Assembly: GCA_020634495.1 (NCBI GenBank)
Contig: JACKBR010000088.1
Span: 1-13,114 of the forward strand
Origin: Ardenticatenaceae bacterium
Lineage (GTDB): Bacteria; Chloroflexota; Anaerolineae; Promineifilales; Promineifilaceae
DNA length: 13,114 nt
Direction of reading: 5' to 3'
The notes under the pieces were generated by a model that was given only the letters and a program-made list of their open reading frames with translations, was not told where the DNA came from and did no database searches. A program made the translations under genes and the position numbers. This document shows, in pieces, positions 396 through 12,971 of this stretch. Each line of letters begins with the position of its first letter. The stretch's first letter is position 1.

Positions 396-3200
396 TTAGC
401 CAGAAACATTTACCAATGCTTGAAACTGAGGATTATCACGAATGCAGAAAAAGATTGGATCATGTTGCGCGATATTGCGATATCCTGGTGAGGTTTCAAT
501 TGCCTCTTTCAATAACTTAAGCGATTCCTCCATGGTATTCGTCATCGAAGCAAAGCCAGCTCGCATATAATTTGACAACATGGAATAATTACCATCCTTT
601 TCTTCCTGAGAAAAAAGCTCTCTCGCCTTATTGCAATATCTTTCAAAGGCTGTTTCATCATTTGTTTGTCGGGAAAGTGCTGCCAATGCTATATAGGCTT
701 CTACATAATTCGGCTTCTTCTCAATGGCTTGATGGTAGAAGAAGGATGCTTTCTCAAGATTGCCTAAAGTATGGTAAACATTTCCAAGTCTGCAAATGGG
801 ATGGACAAACGACGGGCTAAGTAAAATTGCTTTTTCAAACACTTCAGTCGCTTCAATAAAATCCCCTTGATGATAATAGGTGTACCCTAATCCATTATAG
901 GGTATTGCTTGGTCTGGGTTCAATTCAATAGCTTGTAAATAGGCGTCAATACTGGACCGATACCGGCCTAACTGTCTATAAGCATTCCCAATTCCATTAA
1001 AGGCATTTGCATATTGGGGCAATAGGTGAATGGCCTCTTGAAAGGCATCAATCGCCTTTTCGTATTGGCAGGTTTGCATCAATGCGGACCCTAAATATAA
1101 CCAGGCACTCGCTCTGTCAGACTGCCATTTTGTTGCCTTTTCCATAAACACAACAATGTCCTGGGGAGGGATTTTAAATCTCCCAGCTTCCAGCCACATC
1201 AACCCACGGGCTATCTTCTGTAACAAGTCACCTAGTTGTTTGAGCAATACTTTGTTCTCTTCGACCAATTTTTCCTCACAAACCAAACAAAAGCGCAACA
1301 ATTCCAGATATTGACTCGTTTGTTCATCCTCCTTTGTAATTTGCATAATTTGATAATATTTAAGTCTCGCCCGACGCAACTCGATGATAGCCTGACGTTC
1401 ATTTTCATTCTTACCTAAAAACCACCCTTTATGAGCACAGAGAGCAAATATCTGCAACAGTTTTTCTTCCTGTGATATATCCATGACGTCATCTTTGGAA
1501 GCAAGAAATATATCCAGCCGAGAAAGCCATCTTGTTTTTGGCAAGAAGGGTGCCCAATTTTCAATTATATTTAATAGACCTTGCCGCATTTCATGATTGT
1601 AAGCCAAACCTTCTATAAACCGGGGAATAAACCATTGCCATGCTTCTTCTCCACCTATCCAGAACAAATGGTCTGCTAGGTCAAGAGTGGCTTGCACCCA
1701 TTCTTCTTCCACACAACGATCTTCAAGAAGCGGTATTTCCTCATTGATTTCTTCAATAATTTGTCTAAAAAAACGAATTGCTTCTAGATAGTAGTTCTTC
1801 ACCCAAATACTTTGGCGAAGAAGTGCATTTTCACGCATATCCTGGCGAAAAAACCGGGCAGGCTCATCATGAAGCCTCGCCTGTTCTAAATGAACGGAAG
1901 CATATTTGCGTTGGAGATCACGCAACCTTTCGACAAAGTTAAATTTTGAATTGCTTTCTAATCGAAGCAATGCTTCTAATAATCTCAAATTGCCATCTGC
2001 TAGAGCCAGTGCATATAAAGCATGTTCATCTGCTTCAATATTTAGACAATGTTTTAAATACCTATCCGTCATTGCTCGAACAATTTGACTACTTGGCATA
2101 CGCTCATCGCTTTCGGCAACGATGTCTTCAATTGGCGCTCCACTAGCCCAAATGTCAGTTGCTTGCCGAACAGCCAAAGGAATACCTTGTGTGGCTCGAC
2201 AAACCTGTTTTAATTCCTCTTCGTTCATGGGGCGATTGGGGACTCTCGCTGCAAAGTAACGGCCAATTTCTTCTTGAGCAAATTCTGTCATATCCAACAA
2301 ACAAAGACCTTGGGGAAAGTCATCACTATATCCAATGAAGTATTCCGATCCAAAACGACCGCTTTGCGATAGATCATTACGCCCACTAATTATCCATATA
2401 ATTCTCGGACCTGCAGACTTGATTAAAATTCGTGTCCAACTATCTGTTTGATCAATTAATTCGTATGTATCCAAAAATAGAAGCAGGGGTTTGGATTTTG
2501 CGACCTTTTTAAGCCCGTTGGCGAGAGCGAGCGCCAGCTGCTCTTCTGGATTCAAATAGAGCTTGTATTGCTCATAGCTTAGGTGCTGCTTTAGTTTGAC
2601 GTCGATAAAAGAACGCATCTCTGCTAACTGCTTGGCACTCATTTGCATACTCTTGTCAAGAATTGACTGCGTAATTTGTTCACCAACTTCACCAATTGGC
2701 AAGGTCAAGCGAAATAGTTTTGCAATTGCACCTGAACTAAATTTACGCAGAAGGGTATACTGATCTTTCTCATCAACACTTTCAAGAGCAGCGGCCGCTT
2801 TTGCCTCAACCTCCTGGCGTTCTAAAATTATCTTTTGGTATTCCTTAAAATGACGGCTCCACCCCTTTCTGGATGCAACAGCATGTATCACTCGAAAAAC
2901 GGTTTCAGCAGCTATTTGGTCCCGCCCCACGTTCAGGCTATTGAATCGGATTCTTTCTGCTTCCCAATCTACCCATAATGATTGAAATTGACCCTTAAAC
3001 TCATCTTCTTTTTTAGCAATATCCTCAAAGCGGCGAGCAAGTGTGGTTTTACCGATTCCCCCATTGCCATATAGTAAAAAGACTTGTGGAAAACCTTTGC
3101 TGGAAGGGGGTACCTGCCTGATAACAGCCCTGAATTGCTCTTGTTCTCTATCCCGACCGAAAAAGGGGTTTCCTCCAACAATTATGCTTCGAGCAGTCAC
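396..3200 (-). CDS. STAND-type P-loop ATPase with C-terminal TPR repeats
   Basis: A 934-residue protein, numbered from a GTG start. An F-x-GR-E-E-type motif (FFGRDREQEQF, 13-23) opens the NTPase. Walker A is GNGGIGKTT (45-53), Walker B LLLFLDTYE (239-247), a sensor-like ISGRND lies near 271-276, and GIPLAV (339-344) is the GxP motif of NB-ARC/STAND proteins. A helical region follows, then five 34-residue TPRs at about 696-865, and a C-terminal block with NPQFQAL. The start chosen is GTG at 3200, because AGGAGG lies 5 bases upstream (3206-3211). An in-frame TTG at 3224 would add eight residues but has no ribosome binding site. STAND ATPases usually act as ligand-triggered switches: the repeat region senses, the NTPase oligomerises, and an effector domain acts. 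No effector domain is visible here; the P-loop domain begins almost at residue 1. Cytoplasmic role in signalling, transcription control or defence is possible; the exact function is unknown. The gene is clearly AT-richer than the cassette to its right. Confidence 0.85.
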   Translation of the reverse strand: MTARSIIVGGNPFFGRDREQEQFRAVIRQVPPSSKGFPQVFLLYGNGGIGKTTLARRFEDIAKKEDEFKGQFQSLWVDWEAERIRFNSLNVGRDQIAAETVFRVIHAVASRKGWSRHFKEYQKIILERQEVEAKAAAALESVDEKDQYTLLRKFSSGAIAKLFRLTLPIGEVGEQITQSILDKSMQMSAKQLAEMRSFIDVKLKQHLSYEQYKLYLNPEEQLALALANGLKKVAKSKPLLLFLDTYELIDQTDSWTRILIKSAGPRIIWIISGRNDLSQSGRFGSEYFIGYSDDFPQGLCLLDMTEFAQEEIGRYFAARVPNRPMNEEELKQVCRATQGIPLAVRQATDIWASGAPIEDIVAESDERMPSSQIVRAMTDRYLKHCLNIEADEHALYALALADGNLRLLEALLRLESNSKFNFVERLRDLQRKYASVHLEQARLHDEPARFFRQDMRENALLRQSIWVKNYYLEAIRFFRQIIEEINEEIPLLEDRCVEEEWVQATLDLADHLFWIGGEEAWQWFIPRFIEGLAYNHEMRQGLLNIIENWAPFLPKTRWLSRLDIFLASKDDVMDISQEEKLLQIFALCAHKGWFLGKNENERQAIIELRRARLKYYQIMQITKEDEQTSQYLELLRFCLVCEEKLVEENKVLLKQLGDLLQKIARGLMWLEAGRFKIPPQDIVVFMEKATKWQSDRASAWLYLGSALMQTCQYEKAIDAFQEAIHLLPQYANAFNGIGNAYRQLGRYRSSIDAYLQAIELNPDQAIPYNGLGYTYYHQGDFIEATEVFEKAILLSPSFVHPICRLGNVYHTLGNLEKASFFYHQAIEKKPNYVEAYIALAALSRQTNDETAFERYCNKARELFSQEEKDGNYSMLSNYMRAGFASMTNTMEESLKLLKEAIETSPGYRNIAQHDPIFFCIRDNPQFQALVNVSG

Positions 3201-3363
3201 CGTTACCTCCTGGCACTCCTTCAAACTGGAGATTTATTGAGTTCCTATAGGCGAAATTATGGATTATTGCTTATGAAGAATCACAAAGTGAACAAACTTC
3301 TCGATTGCGTTTTACACTGTTTCACTCTTATTTGCAAAAATAGAGCAATTATGGCAAAGGACC

Positions 3364-4349: not shown

Positions 4350-4781
4350 CTAGAACGGAATGTCATCCTCTTCGTATTGAGCCTGCGGGGTATCGGTGGT
4401 ATGACCATTTGCCCCGTTGCCGTTCCCATTTCCATTGCTTCCTAGGAATTGCACCTGGCTGGCTAAGACCTCAAACGAGGCACCCACGGAACCGTCAGTT
4501 CGCGTCCACAAGCGAGGCCCGCCTGTGCCTGGGTCTGGCCGCAGGCGACCCTCAACCAACACTTGACGACCTTTGCGTAAATATTGGTTCACGGCTTCCG
4601 CCTGAGCGCCCCAGACCGATACACGATACCAGGTCACTTCTTCCTGCTGTTCACCGGTTGCCCGGTCATTCCAACGGCGATTGCAAGCCAACGAAAAATT
4701 AGTAACAGCCTGCCCATCGGGCATATAGCGCATTTCTGGGTCACTGCCCAAATTGCCAACAACAACGAGCTTTTGATACAT
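4350..4781 (-). CDS. ssb: Single-stranded DNA-binding protein (SSB)
   Basis: A 143-residue bacterial SSB. Residues 1-114 form the OB fold, with typical landmarks: MYQKLVVVGNLGSDPEMRY at the start, VTNFSLACNRRW, WYRVSVWG (51-58) and LRKGRQVLVEGRL. A short glycine-asparagine linker (about 115-125) is followed by an acidic tip, EEDDIPF (137-143), the canonical C-terminal peptide that recruits partner proteins such as polymerases, helicases and RNase HI. It coats single-stranded DNA in the cytoplasm, usually as a tetramer. The start is fixed by AAAGGAG seven bases upstream (4789-4795). It lies downstream of the polymerase-like gene with a terminator hairpin between them, and the 44-residue membrane ORF follows. 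The sequence looks like the Chloroflexota type. It could be the chromosomal housekeeping copy or a cassette-specific one; the neighbours favour the latter. Confidence 0.95.
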   Translation of the reverse strand: MYQKLVVVGNLGSDPEMRYMPDGQAVTNFSLACNRRWNDRATGEQQEEVTWYRVSVWGAQAEAVNQYLRKGRQVLVEGRLRPDPGTGGPRLWTRTDGSVGASFEVLASQVQFLGSNGNGNGNGANGHTTDTPQAQYEEDDIPF

Positions 4782-4963: not shown

Positions 4964-7585
4964 CTAAAGGGCAGGTTCTAAGACTGCCAGCACGTTCCCA
5001 TCAATGGCGTGCGCCCAGGCAATGCGCCACTGATCATGACGAATGGCAGCCAGCTCATGGTCTCGCTGGACGTAGCCGAACAGGTTGCCATGTGGCGTGC
5101 GGGTCACGACCCGGTTGCTGTCTGTCACTTCCGTGGTAAGCAGCATGCCCTGGAACTCATCCTGAACACAATCAGCGATGCGGGCCTTGGCCCGATTGCG
5201 TACCGCCAACGGCACGTCACTCATGCAGACATACGGCCGTTTTCCCGTTGCATTGAGCCAGTTGAGCCAGACACCATTGAGGCGCACAGGTACACCGGCC
5301 GTAAAACGGCTGGGTTCATCTGCAAAATGCAACACCGCGCCTACCGTTGTCCACACCGGTTCACCCAACAGGCCAATGTGGCGCAGTGCGGCCAGCATTT
5401 GGTGAGCGATACCGGATTCCCGACCACCTTCCGAACGTTGTGCACCCAATTGCCAAACCAGAGCGTCTCGCACTGGCTCGCCGCCCCGACCACGCTTGGG
5501 GCAGGCTTGAGGCCCCTGGGCATACAGATAAGCCGCAGCCCCTAAAAGGGCAAACGGCCGTTTCTGTTCTGGCCACTGCTGCAAGAACCGCTCGCTGGCC
5601 GCACGGGCGGCAACGAAACCTGTAATGAGTGGCGAGGTGCCATCGTTGGCCAAAACATCCGCATCTTCTACGTCACTGCTGTTGCCGATAGCCTGGCGCA
5701 TCGCGTGGCTGTAAGCATTACGCAGCTCCTTACCCACAGGCAGCCAGTCACGACCATGCTCAAAGAGCGCCAAAGGTGGGCAAGCTTCGGTAGCCAGTGC
5801 TTCCACATCTGCCCAGTACTGCTCTCGGTGCATCTCCAGCGCCATTGTCAAGGTGTCCAGCCAATGCCGCCTTAGGCTGGCAGCAGTCGCCACAGCCGCC
5901 GGATCCCGTAACCATTCCGGCAGCCGATCCCGCAGCACAGCAGGCATGGCGCGGTTGCCATTTGCCTGACCATGCTCGACCATACGGGTAATGGCCATCT
6001 GGTTCCACTGCTTCACCAGTGTCAAATCCATCCCGGTTTTCACCGAGCCATCAATGACCGCTTCCAGCGTCGCCGGGAGTTGGTCTGGCAAACGGCCGTA
6101 AATGGCTTTGCACATCATGAGCGCATTGCAGTGTGCCCCCAACACACCCTGGTTGGCCGCCGCCCGCTGAATGGTTGACGCCATCGCCGCCGCCGAGTAT
6201 GATACATTTGTTCTATGAGGGTCGCTTGCTTCCGCGAGTTCCCCGTACTGATAGCTGACGCTATCAATGCGGTTCGGGAGCAGGCGACTTTGCATTTTGG
6301 GGTAGGAAAGCTGGCGACCGCCCGGTACATCCCAGGCGATGACGTGACTGGCGTCTGTTGGCTGCAGCACCACGTACTCGCCCAGCTGATTGGGACTACG
6401 CCAGATGAGCAACTTGCGACCGCCGTTGTCGGACACATCGCTGAAGGGCATCACCCAGACCGCGTCATCTCCATCACAACCGCCCAGCACATCAACGATG
6501 GTGGTCAGCCAGTCATTGTCATTCACCCAGGCAGTTGCACAAGCAGGGTCCAGTTCAATGTGGCCTTCGGGCACATTACGATTGCCAACGACCGCAGGGA
6601 AAATATAGTAACGGCCGCCCGGCGCAGGACAGCGCAGCTTGCTGGCGCGGCTACCCAACCGCTTGAGATGCTGCCGGGCCACCGCTTTCACCAATCCGGC
6701 AAACCACATCAGGCTGCCGCCGCTGGCGATATACTCACCCACATACCAGTTGGATAAAGAATCCAGATCGCTGACAGATTCCGCATCGTAGAGGCGATTT
6801 AGAATGCTAGCTAAACGGCCGTTGCGGATTCCCTCAAGAAACAGCGCGCTTTCCATCCCCGCCCAGGCCAGCAGATGTTCCGGCTGGAAGAACGGGTGTA
6901 GGTTGATGATGCTCTGGATATCCAGGCACATCTGGTCTTCGCTGTGGATGGGATGCAGGCCGATGAAGAGGCGGCCGTCTACCAATGCCAGCTCTTGCTT
7001 GGCGCTGTTGACCGGGAACATGAAATCGACGGCTAGGTCATCTACCACTAGCACATGACCCTTGTCCTGCCCGCCGGCGTGCAGCGTTGTCACCTCAAAC
7101 CGGTCCGTGTGCAGCAGTTCGCGCCGGTGGCGATCATCCAAATCCAGACTGTCGGTCAGGCGCTGGATGAAGCCACGGCTGACCTGGCCGCTGCCGTCCC
7201 ACAGCTTCTCATCCAGCAGGGCATTGTAGTCGATGGTGACCTCATCCTCATCGAAGAAACGCCAGTAGCGAAACGGCCGCATGACGCGGGAGAGTCGTTT
7301 GGAGAGGACATAGCCCCCCTTGTGCAGTGAGAGCTGTAAGCCGGAGCGGGACAGGAAAGTCTCGGTGTCTGTACCAGGCACATGCAAATCCAGCACTTTA
7401 TCGTCCTTCACCCAGCGCAGGGTGGGGGGATCGGCCTGGAAAATCTGGTTCAGTGCCGCTTCGCTGCCAAAGGAGCCAGTCCTCAGCTCGTCGAAGGAAC
7501 GGGAGACAATCTGCCACTGTAATTCGTTGGGCAGAAATGGATATGCCAAACCACCACGGTTGTCGTCAAAACGTAATATGGTCAT
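4964..7585 (-). CDS. Putative two-barrel RNA polymerase (RDR/YonO-like)
   Basis: An 873-residue protein. The start is ATG 7585, with AAGGAG seven bases upstream; the frame is open for 48 more codons, but they overlap the terminator and leader and have no ribosome binding site. Motifs in order match the double-psi beta-barrel RNA polymerase superfamily. DGSGQVS (130-136) corresponds to the DGxGxIS of eukaryotic RDR proteins. GGQDKG (171-176) corresponds to their GGxKG. RCP (318-320) corresponds to the RxP of beta-prime. EGHIELDPAC (340-349) corresponds to beta-prime EGxxIxLxPxxC. GGCDGDDAVWVMPF (368-381) is the metal-binding DxDGD loop. QGVLGAHCNALM (479-490) and IDGSVKTGMD (511-520) match the LGxIxNA and VDxxKTG blocks of RDRs. 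The first Asp of DxDGD appears to be Gly369, with an extra Asp at 374. Residues after about 550 are helical and unassigned. Predicted role: template-directed RNA synthesis in the cytoplasm. The SSB and RNase HI neighbours suggest single-stranded DNA templates and RNA-DNA hybrids. No sequence search was run; the family call rests on several spaced motifs. Confidence 0.72.
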   Translation of the reverse strand: MTILRFDDNRGGLAYPFLPNELQWQIVSRSFDELRTGSFGSEAALNQIFQADPPTLRWVKDDKVLDLHVPGTDTETFLSRSGLQLSLHKGGYVLSKRLSRVMRPFRYWRFFDEDEVTIDYNALLDEKLWDGSGQVSRGFIQRLTDSLDLDDRHRRELLHTDRFEVTTLHAGGQDKGHVLVVDDLAVDFMFPVNSAKQELALVDGRLFIGLHPIHSEDQMCLDIQSIINLHPFFQPEHLLAWAGMESALFLEGIRNGRLASILNRLYDAESVSDLDSLSNWYVGEYIASGGSLMWFAGLVKAVARQHLKRLGSRASKLRCPAPGGRYYIFPAVVGNRNVPEGHIELDPACATAWVNDNDWLTTIVDVLGGCDGDDAVWVMPFSDVSDNGGRKLLIWRSPNQLGEYVVLQPTDASHVIAWDVPGGRQLSYPKMQSRLLPNRIDSVSYQYGELAEASDPHRTNVSYSAAAMASTIQRAAANQGVLGAHCNALMMCKAIYGRLPDQLPATLEAVIDGSVKTGMDLTLVKQWNQMAITRMVEHGQANGNRAMPAVLRDRLPEWLRDPAAVATAASLRRHWLDTLTMALEMHREQYWADVEALATEACPPLALFEHGRDWLPVGKELRNAYSHAMRQAIGNSSDVEDADVLANDGTSPLITGFVAARAASERFLQQWPEQKRPFALLGAAAYLYAQGPQACPKRGRGGEPVRDALVWQLGAQRSEGGRESGIAHQMLAALRHIGLLGEPVWTTVGAVLHFADEPSRFTAGVPVRLNGVWLNWLNATGKRPYVCMSDVPLAVRNRAKARIADCVQDEFQGMLLTTEVTDSNRVVTRTPHGNLFGYVQRDHELAAIRHDQWRIAWAHAIDGNVLAVLEPAL

Positions 7586-7683: not shown

Positions 7684-8019
7684 TTATTCGTTTCGCATAG
7701 TAGTCTCTGCGGAGAACGGCCTTTTCCACTCCTTCTCAAAACCAGCCGGGCGCACTTGTTCCGCGCCACGACAGGTTCGGTAGCCTAGCTGGAGGATGTA
7801 GCGCTGCCAACGGCCGTTTTCGTGCCAGGGTAGGGGGAGACAGATGCCCAGATATACGTCTGCATGATCCAGCACAAAGACATCGTTGCTTTCCAGGTGG
7901 AAGGGACCAAGTCGGGCCGACACGGTTTCTTCCCACGCGTTGCTGTGCTTCTCATGGCTGTGGGTCCAACGGCTGTGCATCAGGTGGGTAAACAGGGTGA
8001 ATAAACGTTGAGTAAACAT
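7684..8019 (-). CDS. Unknown 111-residue cassette protein
   Basis: The ATG at 8019 has AAAGGAG with a 9-base spacer, so the start is well supported. The protein is soluble-looking, rich in His, Trp and Arg, with no membrane segment. The N-terminal 35 residues are basic and histidine-rich (MFTQRLFTLFTHLMHSRWTHSHEKH). The middle (about 41-80) looks like a small beta-rich fold, with NDVFVLDHADVYLGICLPLPW followed by WQRYILQLGYRTCRG. I recognise no family or catalytic motif. It lies between RNase HI and the polymerase-like gene, same strand, each junction carrying a terminator-like hairpin 26-29 bases after the preceding stop. Its position suggests a partner of the polymerase-like protein; nothing in the sequence proves this. 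Confidence 0.75.
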   Translation of the reverse strand: MFTQRLFTLFTHLMHSRWTHSHEKHSNAWEETVSARLGPFHLESNDVFVLDHADVYLGICLPLPWHENGRWQRYILQLGYRTCRGAEQVRPAGFEKEWKRPFSAETTMRNE

Positions 8020-8123: not shown

Positions 8124-8531
8124 TTAAACGGCAGACCAAGCCGCTTCCTGGGCTAACGCATCGCACCGCTCATTCATGGCATGGCCACTATGCCCGGCGA
8201 CAAGCTGCACGTGCAGGTGATGTCCGGCAGCCAATGCACGCACTTGCTGCACCAGGTCACGATTGGCTCTGGCTTTACCGCCGTTCAGAATCGTGGCTAC
8301 ATACTGGCTATCAGTGACCACTGTCACCTGGCAGCAGCGTTTTAGGGCGGCCAAACCGGCAATAACCGCTTGCAACTCCATGCGATTATTGGTGGCATGT
8401 GCCTCGCGACCCGTCAGCGTCTTTTCATGGGCTCCGCTCTGCAAAATAGCCGCATATCCGCCAGGGCCGGGATTCCCTTTGCAGGAACCGTCTGTATACA
8501 GAAAAACTTGAGTTTGTGAACAAACCTTCAT
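8124..8531 (-). CDS. rnhA: Ribonuclease HI
   Basis: A 135-residue RNase HI, which cuts the RNA strand of RNA-DNA hybrids using two metal ions. The catalytic set is complete: D14 in YTDGSCKGNPGPGG, E52 in NNRMELQA, D74 in VTDSQYV, H114 in VAGHSG and D124 in RCDALA. The E. coli enzyme is about 155 residues; here the segment after the third catalytic Asp (about 77-100) is shortened and lacks the Lys/Trp-rich basic protrusion, so substrate handling may differ. ATG 8531 is chosen because AAAGGAGG lies about 11 bases upstream; an in-frame ATG at 8591 lies inside the upstream hairpin and has no binding site. As first gene of the cassette it is a logical partner of an RNA-making enzyme: it can remove primers or R-loops. 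SSB proteins are known to recruit RNase HI through the acidic tip, which the ssb here retains. Confidence 0.95.
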   Translation of the reverse strand: MKVCSQTQVFLYTDGSCKGNPGPGGYAAILQSGAHEKTLTGREAHATNNRMELQAVIAGLAALKRCCQVTVVTDSQYVATILNGGKARANRDLVQQVRALAAGHHLHVQLVAGHSGHAMNERCDALAQEAAWSAV

Positions 8532-8564
8532 GATTGAGCAAACCTCCTTTGCTTGCGTATGGGT

Positions 8565-8608
8565 AAACAAAAAGGCCGGTTGCAGACGCACTGTCTACAA
8601 CCGGCCTT
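8565..8608 (-). terminator. Strong Rho-independent terminator upstream of rnhA
   Basis: Arms AAGGCCGGTTGCAGAC (8572-8587) and GTCTACAACCGGCCTT (8593-8608) make a 16-pair stem with one G-U and a 5-base loop, followed on the minus strand by TTTTTGTTTA. The rnhA ATG is only 40 bases further on. It lies 23 bases after a TGA that ends a possible coding remnant (8632-8745), matching the spacing of the other cassette terminators. Confidence 0.85.
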
Positions 8609-8954: not shown

Positions 8955-9773
8955 TTATTCCGTCAATTTCTGTACGGTTTGATCACCGAGCAATATCTTC
9001 ATTTGCTGAATAGCAATCTGATTCAGGCGAGTCAGTCGTGCGGGCTGTGGCATACCTTCGTTAATAAAAAGTGCATTCAGGTTTTCCAGATTTGCTAAAC
9101 AAACCAGTTGTGACGCATTGGCATAATCGCGGATATTTCCTTCTTTGTCAGGATTTTGCGTGCGCCACTCTGCCGCAGTTTTTCCAAATAGTGCCATATT
9201 CAGCAGATCGGCTTCGGAAGCGTAAATGTAGCCAATTTGCTGCTTGCTCAGATGCGGCGGAACCAGGTTTTCTTTGATCGCGTCGGTGTGGATACGATAA
9301 TTGATTTTGGTCAGGTTTCGGCGAATATCCCAACCCAACTGTTTTTTCTCTTCATCTTTCAGGCGTTGAAATTCTTTGATGAGGTAAAGCTTGAACCTGG
9401 GGGAAATCCATGAAGCAAACTCGAAAGCAATATCTTTGTGGGCATATGTGCCTCCATATCGTCCTGCTTTTGCAACGATACCGATGGCGTTTGTTTTGGC
9501 AACCCACTGCTTCACAGAAAGAATGAATCGGTTCAAGCCGGCTTGGTTTTTAATTCCCTCGAATTCGAGGGAATTAAAATCAGGGTTGTAAATTTCTTCC
9601 CAGATACCTAAAAACTCAATGCTGTTTTTATTTCTAAGCCAATTTTCGATTAAGGTTGATCCATTTTCAATGTCGCGCACCATATCAGTAAGAGAAATGT
9701 AATCTTGTTCCTGATTGGTCAGGATCGTGATTTCGCTCCCTTCGACGTCAATCTTTTTCGTTTTCTTTGCCAT
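8955..9773 (-). CDS. KilA-N domain DNA-binding protein
   Basis: A 272-residue protein of a widespread family with an N-terminal KilA-N domain, found in phage and in many bacterial accessory regions. The domain spans about 24-138, with YISLTDMVRD, ENWLRNKNSIEFL, KTNAIGIVAKAGRYGGTYAHKDIAFEFASWISP and FKLYLIKEFQRLK. The C-terminal half (KINYRIHTDAIKENLVPP, ASEADLLNMALFGKTAAEW, ANLENLNALFINEGM) is the usual conserved tail of this subfamily, so it looks full length. KilA-N domains bind DNA; the role of this subfamily is not established, with antirepressor- or regulator-like function and defence both suggested by context. ATG 9773 has GAGG about nine bases upstream. It points away from the IS110 recombinase, and its promoter must lie in 9774-9930, where an inverted repeat CTTAGT/ACTAAG (9793-9824) and the palindrome GCATATGC (9828-9835) could be operator sites. 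Its own coding region contains a perfect 32-bp palindrome. Confidence 0.9.
   Translation of the reverse strand: MAKKTKKIDVEGSEITILTNQEQDYISLTDMVRDIENGSTLIENWLRNKNSIEFLGIWEEIYNPDFNSLEFEGIKNQAGLNRFILSVKQWVAKTNAIGIVAKAGRYGGTYAHKDIAFEFASWISPRFKLYLIKEFQRLKDEEKKQLGWDIRRNLTKINYRIHTDAIKENLVPPHLSKQQIGYIYASEADLLNMALFGKTAAEWRTQNPDKEGNIRDYANASQLVCLANLENLNALFINEGMPQPARLTRLNQIAIQQMKILLGDQTVQKLTE
9548..9579. repeat. Perfect 32-bp palindrome inside the KilA-N gene
   Basis: The left half TTTTAATTCCCTCGAA is followed immediately by its exact reverse complement, with no spacer, so all 16 base pairs match. It encodes residues F66 to about N76 (FNSLEFEGIKN) of the KilA-N protein without breaking the frame. It cannot act as a normal terminator there. 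It could be an internal operator bound by the KilA-N protein or another dimeric protein, or a cruciform-forming site. Confidence 0.9.
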
Positions 9774-10294
9774 TTTTGTTTACCTCGTATACCTTAGTCG
9801 TGGGAGAGCATATTTTGTACTAAGCGTGCATATGCCGACTGGCCGTATTGGATAAATTTTGGCATCAACACAAGCACCTGTTTGTTACTTTCCATTATAC
9901 GGTTTTAGAACATATGTACAAGTACGCTCAACAGAACCAGGAAGCACCTGGTTAATCCCAACGTGTATACATATTAACAACCGCGCAGGACGCTTCGCGG
10001 ACCAGACCAGGCACATCTGGGAACGGTGGTATACTGCCTCTTGTAAGAGAGTGGGTGCGCCGCTCCAGGTACATGGCGTGAGGGCCGGTCGAGTATCGTT
10101 ATGGGATAACGACGATTCTTCCAATCAGTTCGCCAACCCGCTCACGTGTGTGACCGCCCGCTCGCATCCGCTTACATGAGAAGAGTTTCAGACTCAAGCT
10201 CGTATCCGTGTGTGCAGCCATGACTCTCCAAAGGATGTGCCTGGCCTTTGCTGACAAGGCGTGTCAGTTCCCTTATTTCCTATGGAGGTTGAAT
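9774..10294. other. Intergenic region between divergent KilA-N and IS110 genes
   Basis: This interval separates the divergent KilA-N and recombinase genes. The first 150 bases should hold the KilA-N promoter; I see no strong -35/-10 pair, only the inverted repeats noted with that gene. From about 9935 on it is rich in hairpins and is treated as the non-coding left end of the IS110 element. The plus-strand open frame across 9859-10179 has no binding site and an unrecognised product, so I do not call it. Confidence 0.5.
9935..10290 (+). ncRNA. Candidate IS110 bridge RNA locus
   Basis: IS110-group elements encode a structured bridge RNA in the non-coding left end, just upstream of the recombinase gene. 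This stretch contains a chain of hairpins: AACCAGG/CCTGGTT (9935-9953), CCGCG/CGCGG (9981-10000), CCAGA/TCTGG (10002-10020), CTCTT/AAGAG (10038-10049) and a perfect TCGTTAT-GGG-ATAACGA (10096-10112). Position and structure density fit. The target- and donor-binding loops cannot be assigned without knowing the insertion core, and the RNA ends are guesses. Confidence 0.35.
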
Positions 10295-11515
10295 ATGGAT
10301 ACGTTAGAGATTGTTCCCCAACGCTTCATTGGCCTGGATATTCACAAACATTACTTTGTAGCTACTGGTGTCAATCCTGACAAAGAGCAGATATTGGGTC
10401 CGCAGCGCGTGCCTAATGCTCGACTGGAAGCGTGGGCAGAGCGGGAGCTGTGCCCTACAGATGCGGTGGTGCTGGAAATGACGACCAATACCTGGAAAGT
10501 GGTGGATACACTGGAACCCTTTACCCATTCGGTTACCGTGGCGCATCCACCACACGTCCATCTCATCACCCGAGCCCAGGTGATGACCGACAAAAAAGCT
10601 GCCCTCATTTTAGCACAACTTCATGCCGCCGGACTGCTGCCCCCCGTTTGGGTACCGCCACAAGCAGTGCGCCATCTGCGCGCCCTCATTGCCCAGCGCT
10701 GGAAAATGGTGCGTCTGGCGACCCAAGCCAAGTGCCGTTTGCAGTCAGTATTGCACAAATACCACCTGGAAGCGCCACTGAAAAGCGACCCTTATACGCC
10801 GCAAATGCGGGCGTGGTGGGAGGCGCTGCCCCTGGAGCCGCTGGAACAGTTTCGCTTGCAGTCTGACCTGGATACCGTGGCCTTTGCCCGGCAGCAGTTA
10901 GAGCGATTGGAGCAATGCCTGGCGCACCACGCGGCGCGGGATGAGCGGGTGCCGCTGCTGGTGCAGATTCCGGGCATTGGCTTCATCAATGCAGTGACCA
11001 TTTTGGCAGCCATTGGTGAAATCGGCCGTTTTCCCACGGCCAATCATCTGGTTGGCTACGCTGGCTTGGGGACGAAGGTGCATGACAGCGGCCAGCTGCA
11101 CTGGCGCGGTCGGATCACCAAGATGGGACGGCGTGACTTACGCAGAGCGATGGTTGAGGCGGCACAATCGGCCGTGCGCCACCATGACCACTGGAAGGTC
11201 GAATACCAACGCTTATGTGGACAAACGGCGAAGAAAAAAGCGAAGGTCGCCATTGCCCGGAAGCTGCTGGTGACGGTCTGGCATACGTTGGCCAAGGATG
11301 AAGTGGATCGCTTTGCCACGCCACAGCAGGTAGCTTGTTCTTTCTTTGGCCTGGCTTACAAGCTCAAGGTCAAGAATCTGCCGGATGGTATGAGTGCTTT
11401 GCAGTTCACCCGGCATCATCTGGACCGGTTGGGCATTGGGCAGGAGCTGACCCATATTCCCTGGGGCAGCAAGGCGTTTAAGCTGCCGCCTTCGCAGCTG
11501 CCGCCAGCTGGCTAG
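10295..11515 (+). CDS. IS110-family recombinase (DEDD transposase)
   Basis: A 406-residue recombinase that moves the element by bridge-RNA-guided recombination. ATG 10295 is chosen because GGAGG lies six bases upstream; the frame extends 29 codons further back without a binding site. The N-terminal RuvC-like (DEDD_Tnp_IS110) domain shows D15 in FIGLDIHKHYF, E61 in VVLEMTTNTW and D99 in VMTDKKAALILA. The usual motif is TDxxDAxxLA, so the fourth acidic residue is Ala102 here. The C-terminal Transposase_20 domain (about 222-305) starts VQIPGIGFINAVTILAAIGEIG and contains the expected catalytic serine S265 in VHDSGQLHWRG, followed by ITKMGRRDLRRAM. Length is normal for the family and there is no frameshift. 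The missing acid may mean an inactive copy or a subfamily variant. It is transcribed away from the KilA-N gene and converges on the RHS immunity gene. Confidence 0.93.
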   Translation: MDTLEIVPQRFIGLDIHKHYFVATGVNPDKEQILGPQRVPNARLEAWAERELCPTDAVVLEMTTNTWKVVDTLEPFTHSVTVAHPPHVHLITRAQVMTDKKAALILAQLHAAGLLPPVWVPPQAVRHLRALIAQRWKMVRLATQAKCRLQSVLHKYHLEAPLKSDPYTPQMRAWWEALPLEPLEQFRLQSDLDTVAFARQQLERLEQCLAHHAARDERVPLLVQIPGIGFINAVTILAAIGEIGRFPTANHLVGYAGLGTKVHDSGQLHWRGRITKMGRRDLRRAMVEAAQSAVRHHDHWKVEYQRLCGQTAKKKAKVAIARKLLVTVWHTLAKDEVDRFATPQQVACSFFGLAYKLKVKNLPDGMSALQFTRHHLDRLGIGQELTHIPWGSKAFKLPPSQLPPAG

Positions 11516-11665: not shown

Positions 11666-12211
11666 TTATTCCGCATTGTCATACAGTCTGTTGTGAAATG
11701 TCTGGTCAACGTACTTGACGATTTGTTCAAATTCCTCAATAGTCATTTCGTCGTCAATGACGACATTGAGCGTTGCTACATACTCCCGATATCTTGCCCG
11801 AGAGACACAACGAAACCCGCCAAATTCTGAGGTGCCGCAGCCTGTCACAAACTCATCAGCTACCGAGCTTCGATACAAACTATCCGTGTACAAAGGGTAT
11901 GATCCCAGGTTTTCATAAAAACGGAACGCTTTGCTTGCCCAACCAAACGTTGGTAGCCGTTCCACGTTGAAGGTTGCTAATCCATTGAGTCCAGACCAGT
12001 AGACAGTTTGGTTGCCCGAATCCAAAGCGGGAAGGGAATCCCTGTTTGAAAGCATCGGATGATAATCCACACCTGCTGGAAAATATCCTTTGGGAATACT
12101 CATTTCCGCAACTTCAATCGGTGGCCTAAAAAACCAGAGATAAAGGAGACCACACGCCGCTATCCCAAGTAGTAAGAGTAAAACCGCTACCATACGCCAT
12201 CTATTGGCCAT
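11666..12211 (-). CDS. Candidate membrane-anchored immunity protein of the RHS toxin tip
   Basis: A 181-residue protein of unrecognised family. Its ATG (12211) lies inside the end of the toxin frame, overlapping by 11 bases, with GGAG about nine bases upstream; this is the tight coupling typical of toxin-immunity pairs. The N-terminus is a short basic MANRWRM followed by a hydrophobic stretch to about residue 28. IAAC at 17-20 resembles a lipobox, but the hydrophobic run continues past the cysteine, so a membrane anchor is more likely than a lipoprotein. The remaining roughly 150 residues would lie outside the cytoplasm. They include VYWSGLNGLATF and a segment with two cysteines (VTGCGTSEFGGFRCVSRARY) that may form a disulphide, followed by an acidic helix (DDEMTIEEFEQIVKYV). 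The immunity role is inferred from position only. Confidence 0.7.
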   Translation of the reverse strand: MANRWRMVAVLLLLLGIAACGLLYLWFFRPPIEVAEMSIPKGYFPAGVDYHPMLSNRDSLPALDSGNQTVYWSGLNGLATFNVERLPTFGWASKAFRFYENLGSYPLYTDSLYRSSVADEFVTGCGTSEFGGFRCVSRARYREYVATLNVVIDDEMTIEEFEQIVKYVDQTFHNRLYDNAE

Positions 12212-12971
12212 AATTGAAAGCTCCTATCGGATAACGGTTTTCTTGAGGCTCTGCTGCAACTGCGGGAATAATTGGTGGTTTTTGCAATGTGTACATGACC
12301 GCTGGTGTCAGGGCTGTTCGCAAATCGTTGGGCACAAATCCATACCCATGTGTGTCAAACAAGTCATAACCCAGGTCAACAGCTGCTTTGTCGGCCGGAT
12401 TTTCATATCGGGTGTTGAAATCTCCTGGATCGCCATCACCAAATAAACCACCAACAAGTTCTAATAAGCCAGCAGCCCAATAAGATTCTTCGCGTGGAAT
12501 GCCTGCGGCAGCGGCTAAAAACCCGTAATGAATATTTCCAGGAACGGAATAGTCGAACCAGCCACAGGATGTTTCGCCACATAAAACCACTGCTTTACCG
12601 ATTACATCTTCCATCTCTCTCTTGAGGTCCCATATACCATAATCGCGGGTCAGTTCAAACCAAGCCCCCTGCGCGGCTAGAAAGCCACTTCCGCCACCTG
12701 CAGCCATAAGTCCAGCAATTTGAGGGTCGCTTTCCATTCTCATAAACTCTATAACTAAATTCAGTTCTTCACTAAATAGATTAGCCAACATCTCACTGCC
12801 TAACCAGGATGTCAAATCATACTGAATTCCCTCTTCGGCTGGTGCATCTATAAAGCTACCATCATCGCTACACTGTTCTGTCCCCAGGACATCACAAGCT
12901 ATATGACCAGATGGGTCAGAATACTTGACAGGGTTGTTATATCCGTAACGACTCTCCCCATATAATGTTTG
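12201..12971 (-). pseudogene. Detached RHS C-terminal toxin tip (Toxin_44-like), 5' truncated
   Basis: The open frame gives 256 residues bounded upstream by an in-frame TAG (12972-12974). Its first 23 residues, including RYGYNNPVKYSDPSGH, are the canonical end of the RHS-repeat core, where the shell meets the variable toxin tip. The tip (about 138-209) carries WFDYSVPGNIHYGFL, AAGLLELVGG and NPADKAAVDLGYDLFDTHG, resembling the Bacterial toxin 44 (Ntox44) domain of polymorphic toxins. The RHS shell, normally over a thousand residues of YD repeats, is missing, so this is an orphan tip or pseudogene. An in-frame TTG at 12815 would give 204 residues, but its binding site is poor. Complete RHS proteins encapsulate and release such tips into rival cells. 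The overlapping downstream gene is the likely immunity partner, kept although the delivery part is gone. Assignment to Toxin_44 is by motif recognition. Confidence 0.75.

Follow-up and report, generated by a model that had tools for sequence, protein, structure and literature searches.

A single-chain, two-barrel RNA polymerase-like protein with an altered metal loop, encoded beside SSB and RNase HI genes in probable mobile DNA of Chloroflexi

The cellular RNA polymerases belong to the two-barrel polymerases, and the compact single-chain members of the group inform the debate on the origin of that machine. In RDR2 and QDE-1 both barrels lie on a single chain, with an aspartate loop and a pair of conserved lysines, which in QDE-1 are K743 and K767 (PMC1750930). 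As described in PMC2950127, QDE-1 strongly favours ssDNA over RNA and is inactive on dsDNA; it works with RPA, and its DNA/RNA hybrids are degraded by RNase H. YonO of SPbeta is an approximately 100-kDa single-chain enzyme with two-barrel homology (PMC5467207), and the NCgl1702-like RNA polymerases are two-barrel proteins already noted on mobile elements (PMC7824862). In the F plasmid, leading genes are expressed by the host RNA polymerase from folded ssDNA promoters on the incoming strand, including one in front of ssb (PMC9849209). Single-chain two-barrel polymerases were thus already known; what appears to be new here is a family whose metal loop is altered, whose copies come in pairs and whose neighbourhood relates to ssDNA transfer.

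The protein under study, POL1, is encoded in the window, which is the whole stretch of 13,114 nucleotides that was analysed. Its parts are as follows.

4964..7585, minus strand: POL1, 873-aa single-chain two-barrel RNA polymerase-like protein (ORF, homologue starts, model, fold matches)
6950..7270, minus strand: predicted first double-psi beta-barrel (beta-like), residues ~106-212 (VIA-align rows)
7061-7063, minus strand: K175, in the first barrel (43/43 rows)
6998-7000, minus strand: K196, in the first barrel (43/43 rows)
6401..6634, minus strand: predicted second barrel region (beta-prime-like), residues ~318-395 (model strands; limits approximate and inferred)
6464..6475, minus strand: D371-G-D373-D374, putative metal-binding loop (conservation in 43 rows)
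6374..6400, minus strand: R396-SPNQLGEY, family signature behind the metal loop (R396, P398, N399 and G402 in 43/43)
4967..5299, minus strand: C-terminal domain, residues 763-873, weak HIRAN-like fold match (separate model, Foldseek)

The reading frame at 4964..7585 on the minus strand, first proposed in a preliminary description of this DNA, was found to be real. The mechanical frame begins at a GTG at 7729, 48 codons before the ATG at 7585; the ATG is the correct start because its Met, in MT(I/V/T)LRFDD, begins most of the homologues listed. The homology search returned 464 proteins at E up to 0.001 among approximately 5.8 billion. Among the best 120 of these 464, all those with a source name were called "hypothetical", and the named organisms were Anaerolineae and related Chloroflexota MAGs, except for one Planctomycetota MAG. 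The closest homologue by alignment among the matches listed (P0002, 87%) comes from a MAG named Planctomycetota, through either misbinning or transfer. Pfam, NCBIfam and PHROGs (E up to 1) gave no match for POL1, nor did PADLOC (E up to 0.01) or the collections of phages and plasmids. No description of the family was found in libraries or literature; an earlier one under another name, such as NCgl1702-like, is possible.

A structural comparison of the kind proposed in the preliminary description was run on the predicted model of POL1, and double-psi matches were obtained, with RDR2 as the best structural match. In VIA-align, designed double-psi proteins and chains of RNA polymerases covered residues ~104-213, and the second barrel was placed by order relative to DPBB2 of QDE-1 (PMC1750930). 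Two double-psi beta-barrels were found in the catalytic core of the model. The RDR-family fold was recovered over the catalytic part by VIA-align, with low Foldseek TM-scores to RDR2 (0.28-0.35); absence from VIA-align or Foldseek rows was never counted against any family. There was no sequence-level match to RDR2 or QDE-1: neither the RdRP family nor any other in Pfam was matched at E up to 1. Searches of PDB sequences returned chance rows only, both for POL1 (one row) and for the profiles A1 and A3, and A3 did not match the P23-45 gp96 fragment (probability 0.1). Residues kept in relatives at 20-22% identity, taken together with the structure match, go far beyond chance. POL1 is a remote relative of the RNA-silencing polymerases of plants and fungi. 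The two-barrel polymerase fold is highly likely on the predicted model, and POL1 is predicted, with strong confidence, to be an active RNA polymerase. The proposal of an uncharacterised single-subunit polymerase family thus gained support from both the predicted fold and the invariant residues.

With plant RDR2 providing the best structural matches, POL1 might be an RNA-dependent, RDR-like polymerase that makes dsRNA for defence or silencing, and defence genes do occur in some elements (BrxL and PglZ at locus L078; KilA-N with PDC-S22 in the window). However, no Argonaute or Dicer domain was found in 20 Pfam-scanned neighbour proteins of relatives, PADLOC had no match for POL1 or for the one scanned member of a second, paralogous polymerase, POL2, and the SSB and relaxase-like genes indicate DNA; the RDR-like reading is very unlikely. 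A defence system as such was dropped on the same PADLOC result.

Unlike RDR2 and QDE-1, POL1 is bacterial, lies in a mobile-looking context and has an extra C-terminal domain. The separate model of this domain had a pLDDT of 87.5, and its top 12 Foldseek rows were all lp_0118 or HLTF HIRAN, at weak E values of 0.015-0.15. In contrast, the 21 members scanned at E up to 10 matched 15 Pfam families between them, and HIRAN was absent from these. With structure rows for it and sequence against it, the HIRAN likeness is weak.

Residues were counted over an alignment of 43 rows, including one identical pair, which comprised 20 Chloroflexi and 16 phage proteins (A3), five second phage copies and two further POL2 proteins. 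K96, R97, D130-G131, K175, K196, D222, D371, D373, R396, P398-N399, G402, G483 and D512 were present in 43/43 rows; D374 (42/43), P320 (42/43), N487 (39/43) and R318 (only 32/43) were less than invariant. The strings quoted in the preliminary description were all present in POL1 in the quoted order and its numbering of D371/D373 was correct, with EGHIELDPAC and VKTG largely confined to the Chloroflexi branch. The metal loop, in contrast, was not the DxDGD given there for the superfamily but GGxDxDD, found in 240/240 among the matches listed (best 120 of the 464 POL1 homologues and best 120 of 237 matches of a phage relative). The canonical DxDxD metal-binding triad was not found in the POL1 family: three aspartates are kept, the third standing one residue early. 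The sole row without D374 is that of the divergent homologue L134, where the aligned residues read DQDGD; the first two of these aspartates align on D371 and D373 and the third falls one residue after D374. These alignments suggest a one-residue shift of the third aspartate in the POL1 family. Aligned on the GG pair instead, the GGDLDGD loop of RDR2 would pair only its last aspartate with D374. The GGxDxDD loop also differs from that of YonO, which keeps the cellular-polymerase aspartate triad and was set apart by description, and its DxDD differs from the DxDxD loop of P23-45 gp96 and gp64 and P74-26 gp62, which in gp96 is DFDGD (PMC10770324). Two basic residues from the other barrel were found in K175 and K196, which correspond to K743 and K767 of QDE-1 by position, not by superposition.

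The absence of the canonical third aspartate position could mean that POL1 is a catalytically dead relative whose altered DxDD loop binds nucleic acid without polymerising. This is highly improbable: three aspartates and both lysines are kept over POL1, POL2 and two phage groups, and dead enzymes do not usually keep a full set of catalytic residues. A large family (464 and 237 matches), unannotated in the libraries searched and with shifted aspartate spacing, is a natural test of how much change the metal loop tolerates.

The neighbouring genes of POL1 in the window are as follows.

4350..4781, minus strand: SSB, 143 aa, tail EEDDIPF intact (PF00436, E 9.5e-31)
7684..8019, minus strand: c3, small conserved cassette protein of unknown function (cluster cl3, 10 loci, some duplicates)
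8124..8591, minus strand: RNase HI, 155-aa ORF, true start may be internal (PF00075, E 5.3e-32)
8955..9773, minus strand: KilA-N protein (PF04383, E 7.6e-26; PADLOC PDC-S22, E 9.5e-135)

The catalytic D-E-D-D pattern of RNase HI was present by eye in the 8124..8591 protein, and the one c3 member that was scanned had no Pfam match. The genome-contig scan gave 30 loci, and each record title named a Chloroflexota MAG or a genome of that phylum. The recurring order was methyltransferase-helicase (DUF6094), small genes, RNase HI, DUF4326, c3 and POL1, followed by SSB, c22, c10, relaxase-like gene, VirD4/TraG coupling protein, DUF4417, c21 and POL2. Every piece together was found in no single locus; L005, L006, L009 and L010 span POL1 via the coupling protein to POL2. 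Among loci with at least 1.2 kb of downstream flank, 17/20 had a same-strand SSB gene no more than 1.1 kb downstream of POL1 (upstream in two, absent in one). RNase HI lay within 1.6 kb upstream in 13/18 loci with at least 2 kb of upstream flank and was missing in 5/18; in L010, whose cassette also holds a relative of the window KilA-N protein, it is in pieces. Where the downstream flank was at least 5 kb, a relaxase-like gene was found within 3.5 kb downstream of POL1 in only 7/13 loci and a coupling protein within 4.1 kb in 6/13. Among POL2 loci, DUF4417 stood directly before POL2 in 10/11. Distances were taken between stop-to-stop frames. The counts omit L003, L007, L014, L017 and L028-L030 (short), L027 (polymerase piece of less than 900 bases) and, for each count, loci whose flank was too short; L086-L090 were used for POL2 alone, and loci of the same MAG are not independent (L002/L008/L013; L001/L016; L006/L021/L023; L009/L019). 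In the window, KilA-N, RNase HI, c3, POL1 and SSB were present, with no relaxase and no coupling protein. A large AAA/NB-ARC-like protein with TPR repeats (396-3224) lies past SSB, where other loci have the relaxase-like and coupling-protein genes.

The DNA that bears POL1 in Chloroflexi is probably mobile. A VirD4-type coupling protein was found in relatives of the POL1 element (PF02534, E 1.4e-33 in one member); these proteins keep the Walker-type PTxxGKG and DELP motifs in 7/7 aligned, and occurred in 5/8 polymerase-bearing genomes, with 7/8 of their loci on polymerase contigs. With E allowed up to 10, PF03432 was matched by 7/8 members of the relaxase-like cluster (best E 5.6e-6), which has an invariant HxDTxxxHAH and a Tyr; in the whole-genome Pfam relaxase search at E up to 0.001, one place in 1/8 genomes was found. 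A large serine recombinase was located approximately 4.5 kb past POL2 in one locus. VirB4-type PF12846, the single model searched in these incomplete MAGs, was weak in 8/8 genomes, exceeded the cut-off once and was never on a polymerase contig, and a self-transmissible element gained no support from it. Polymerase matches were found in 22/56 genomes of one order, or 15/49 when the seven known carriers are subtracted, and in at least 2/400 genomes of a phylum sample, one being the centre genome itself; the latter figure is a lower bound, with at most two candidates per genome scored among the matches listed. Such a patchy distribution is as for mobile DNA; the accessory cassette that had been suggested is supported.

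The best fold match of POL1 in the viral library was an unannotated 851-aa phage protein (E 1.5e-38). When viral contigs were scanned with POL1, two contigs were found, both with one identical distant relative (24% identity over the matched part). This phage relative had no match in the phages collection, and its own family comprised 237 significant matches; the phage family was found at 35 loci, and the contigs of 17 of these measure 104-268 kb. The Chloroflexi and phage families matched each other as profiles (A1 against A2) with a probability of 99.4 and an E value of 8.8e-22. Some of the phage contigs encode a WhiB-like protein (cluster ph11, identified by eye), which hints at actinobacterial hosts for some of them. 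This homology, and the strong PHROG matches of KilA-N, SSB and RNase H, would fit POL1 as a decayed prophage gene and the window as the remnant of such a large phage. In the tree of 44 rows, however, a long, fully supported branch separates the Chloroflexi from the phage proteins, no convincing phage structural gene was found among the neighbours (10 by PHROGs, with weak head/tail rows; 20 by Pfam), and coupling-protein and relaxase-like genes are present instead, making a prophage origin decidedly unlikely. The large-phage relatives have no evident role in transfer, and the family may originally have served ordinary transcription in phages. By linking Chloroflexi elements to large phages, it offers a new point from which to trace how transcription machinery is exchanged between the two.

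Polymerases were paired in both settings. Two long matches on one contig were found on 6 contigs in the order survey of 56 genomes, and a second match was present on 8/14 searched phage contigs of 133 kb or more: in seven of the eight as a divergent copy approximately 9-17 kb from the first (two of these, G459 and G468, look like the same phage), and in one as a close copy elsewhere on the contig. In the tree, POL2-type proteins formed one clade (support 96/86, one long branch included) and phage proteins another. On the phage contigs L134-L138, the second polymerase is a divergent two-barrel protein, with GGxDxDD in L135-L138 and identical sequences in L136 and L137. On G004:C241 (L021/L082), a 1020-aa POL2 lies upstream of POL1 and keeps a C-terminal domain.

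The pairing in elements and phages is what the chief rival explanation would lead one to expect, namely that POL1 and POL2 are promoter-specific dsDNA transcriptases of element genes, with SSB and RNase HI as ordinary replication neighbours. Characterised single-chain phage enzymes act in this manner, both YonO (PMC5467207) and the virion and non-virion enzymes of P23-45 (PMC10770324). This explanation leaves the linkage to SSB and RNase HI unexplained, though, and QDE-1, a structural relative, is reported to be inactive on dsDNA (PMC2950127). Nor was an element-specific promoter motif found in one simple k-mer test. The strongest upstream motif, the 8-mer ACGGCCGT, occurred in 33/141 upstream regions against a control maximum of 8, and as a promoter of the polymerase it was dropped, as it occurs within genes and genome-wide. 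The dsDNA reading is rather unlikely.

In contrast, an ssDNA-linked proposal follows from three things taken together: the precedent of QDE-1 with RPA and RNase H (PMC2950127); the cassette, where their bacterial counterparts SSB and RNase HI flank POL1 and whose fuller versions also encode nicking-type and transfer proteins; and the transcription of ssDNA in F. Conjugative leading regions likewise combine an element-encoded SSB with early RNA on the incoming strand, F doing so with the host enzyme, unlike the role proposed here (PMC9849209). The steps beyond fold and neighbourhood are inferred. The element would pass through a single-stranded form when nicked, transferred or replicated by rolling circle, and SSB would coat this strand. 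POL1 would then start RNA on it, giving second-strand primers, early transcripts or both, and RNase HI would clear RNA from the RNA:DNA hybrids. POL2 is a possible second enzyme with another start specificity, as in phages with two RNA polymerases. The folds of plasmid primases are unrelated to that of POL1. The whole reading, in which a mobilisable element has an active DNA-dependent RNA polymerase that is templated by ssDNA and acts with SSB and RNase HI, was given a probability of about 0.5. For POL1 itself, a role linked to ssDNA in element transfer or replication has slightly less than an even chance. It is suggested more tentatively that mobilisable elements of Chloroflexi use a two-barrel pair of their own, with the DxDD loop, on the SSB-coated strand during transfer or replication, beginning their priming and expression in a new cell without host RNA polymerase or primase, and that the same family supplies RNA polymerases of large phages. 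An RNA polymerase may thus travel with such elements. Because the gene is set beside those for SSB, RNase HI, a relaxase-like protein and a coupling protein, it becomes testable whether some mobile elements have one for ssDNA.

Inverted repeats of four stretches were also inspected for hairpin-type ssDNA promoters, with nothing consistent by eye. ACGGCCGT is a palindrome that was found nine times in the window (0.15 expected), at 145, 3792, 4071, 5233, 5554, 6092, 6815, 7810 and 8088, and was absent from L012, L024 and L089. AACGGCCGTT was counted 3388 times in G003, 4045 in G002 and 3823 in G001, compared to 42, 12 and 7 for the reversed control, and is a highly iterated palindrome in G001-G003. 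HIP1 of cyanobacteria is a comparable highly iterated palindrome; no description of ACGGCCGT was found in the literature.

Other genes were observed near the polymerases. At L078 (5321-8871), BREX-type genes (PglZ domain, BrxL) adjoin POL2 on the opposite strand. In the window, positions 10208-11515 encode an IS110-family RNA-guided transposase, and positions 12201-12815 encode a protein with an Ntox44 toxin domain (E 4.2e-10); the adjacent 181-aa protein has no known role.
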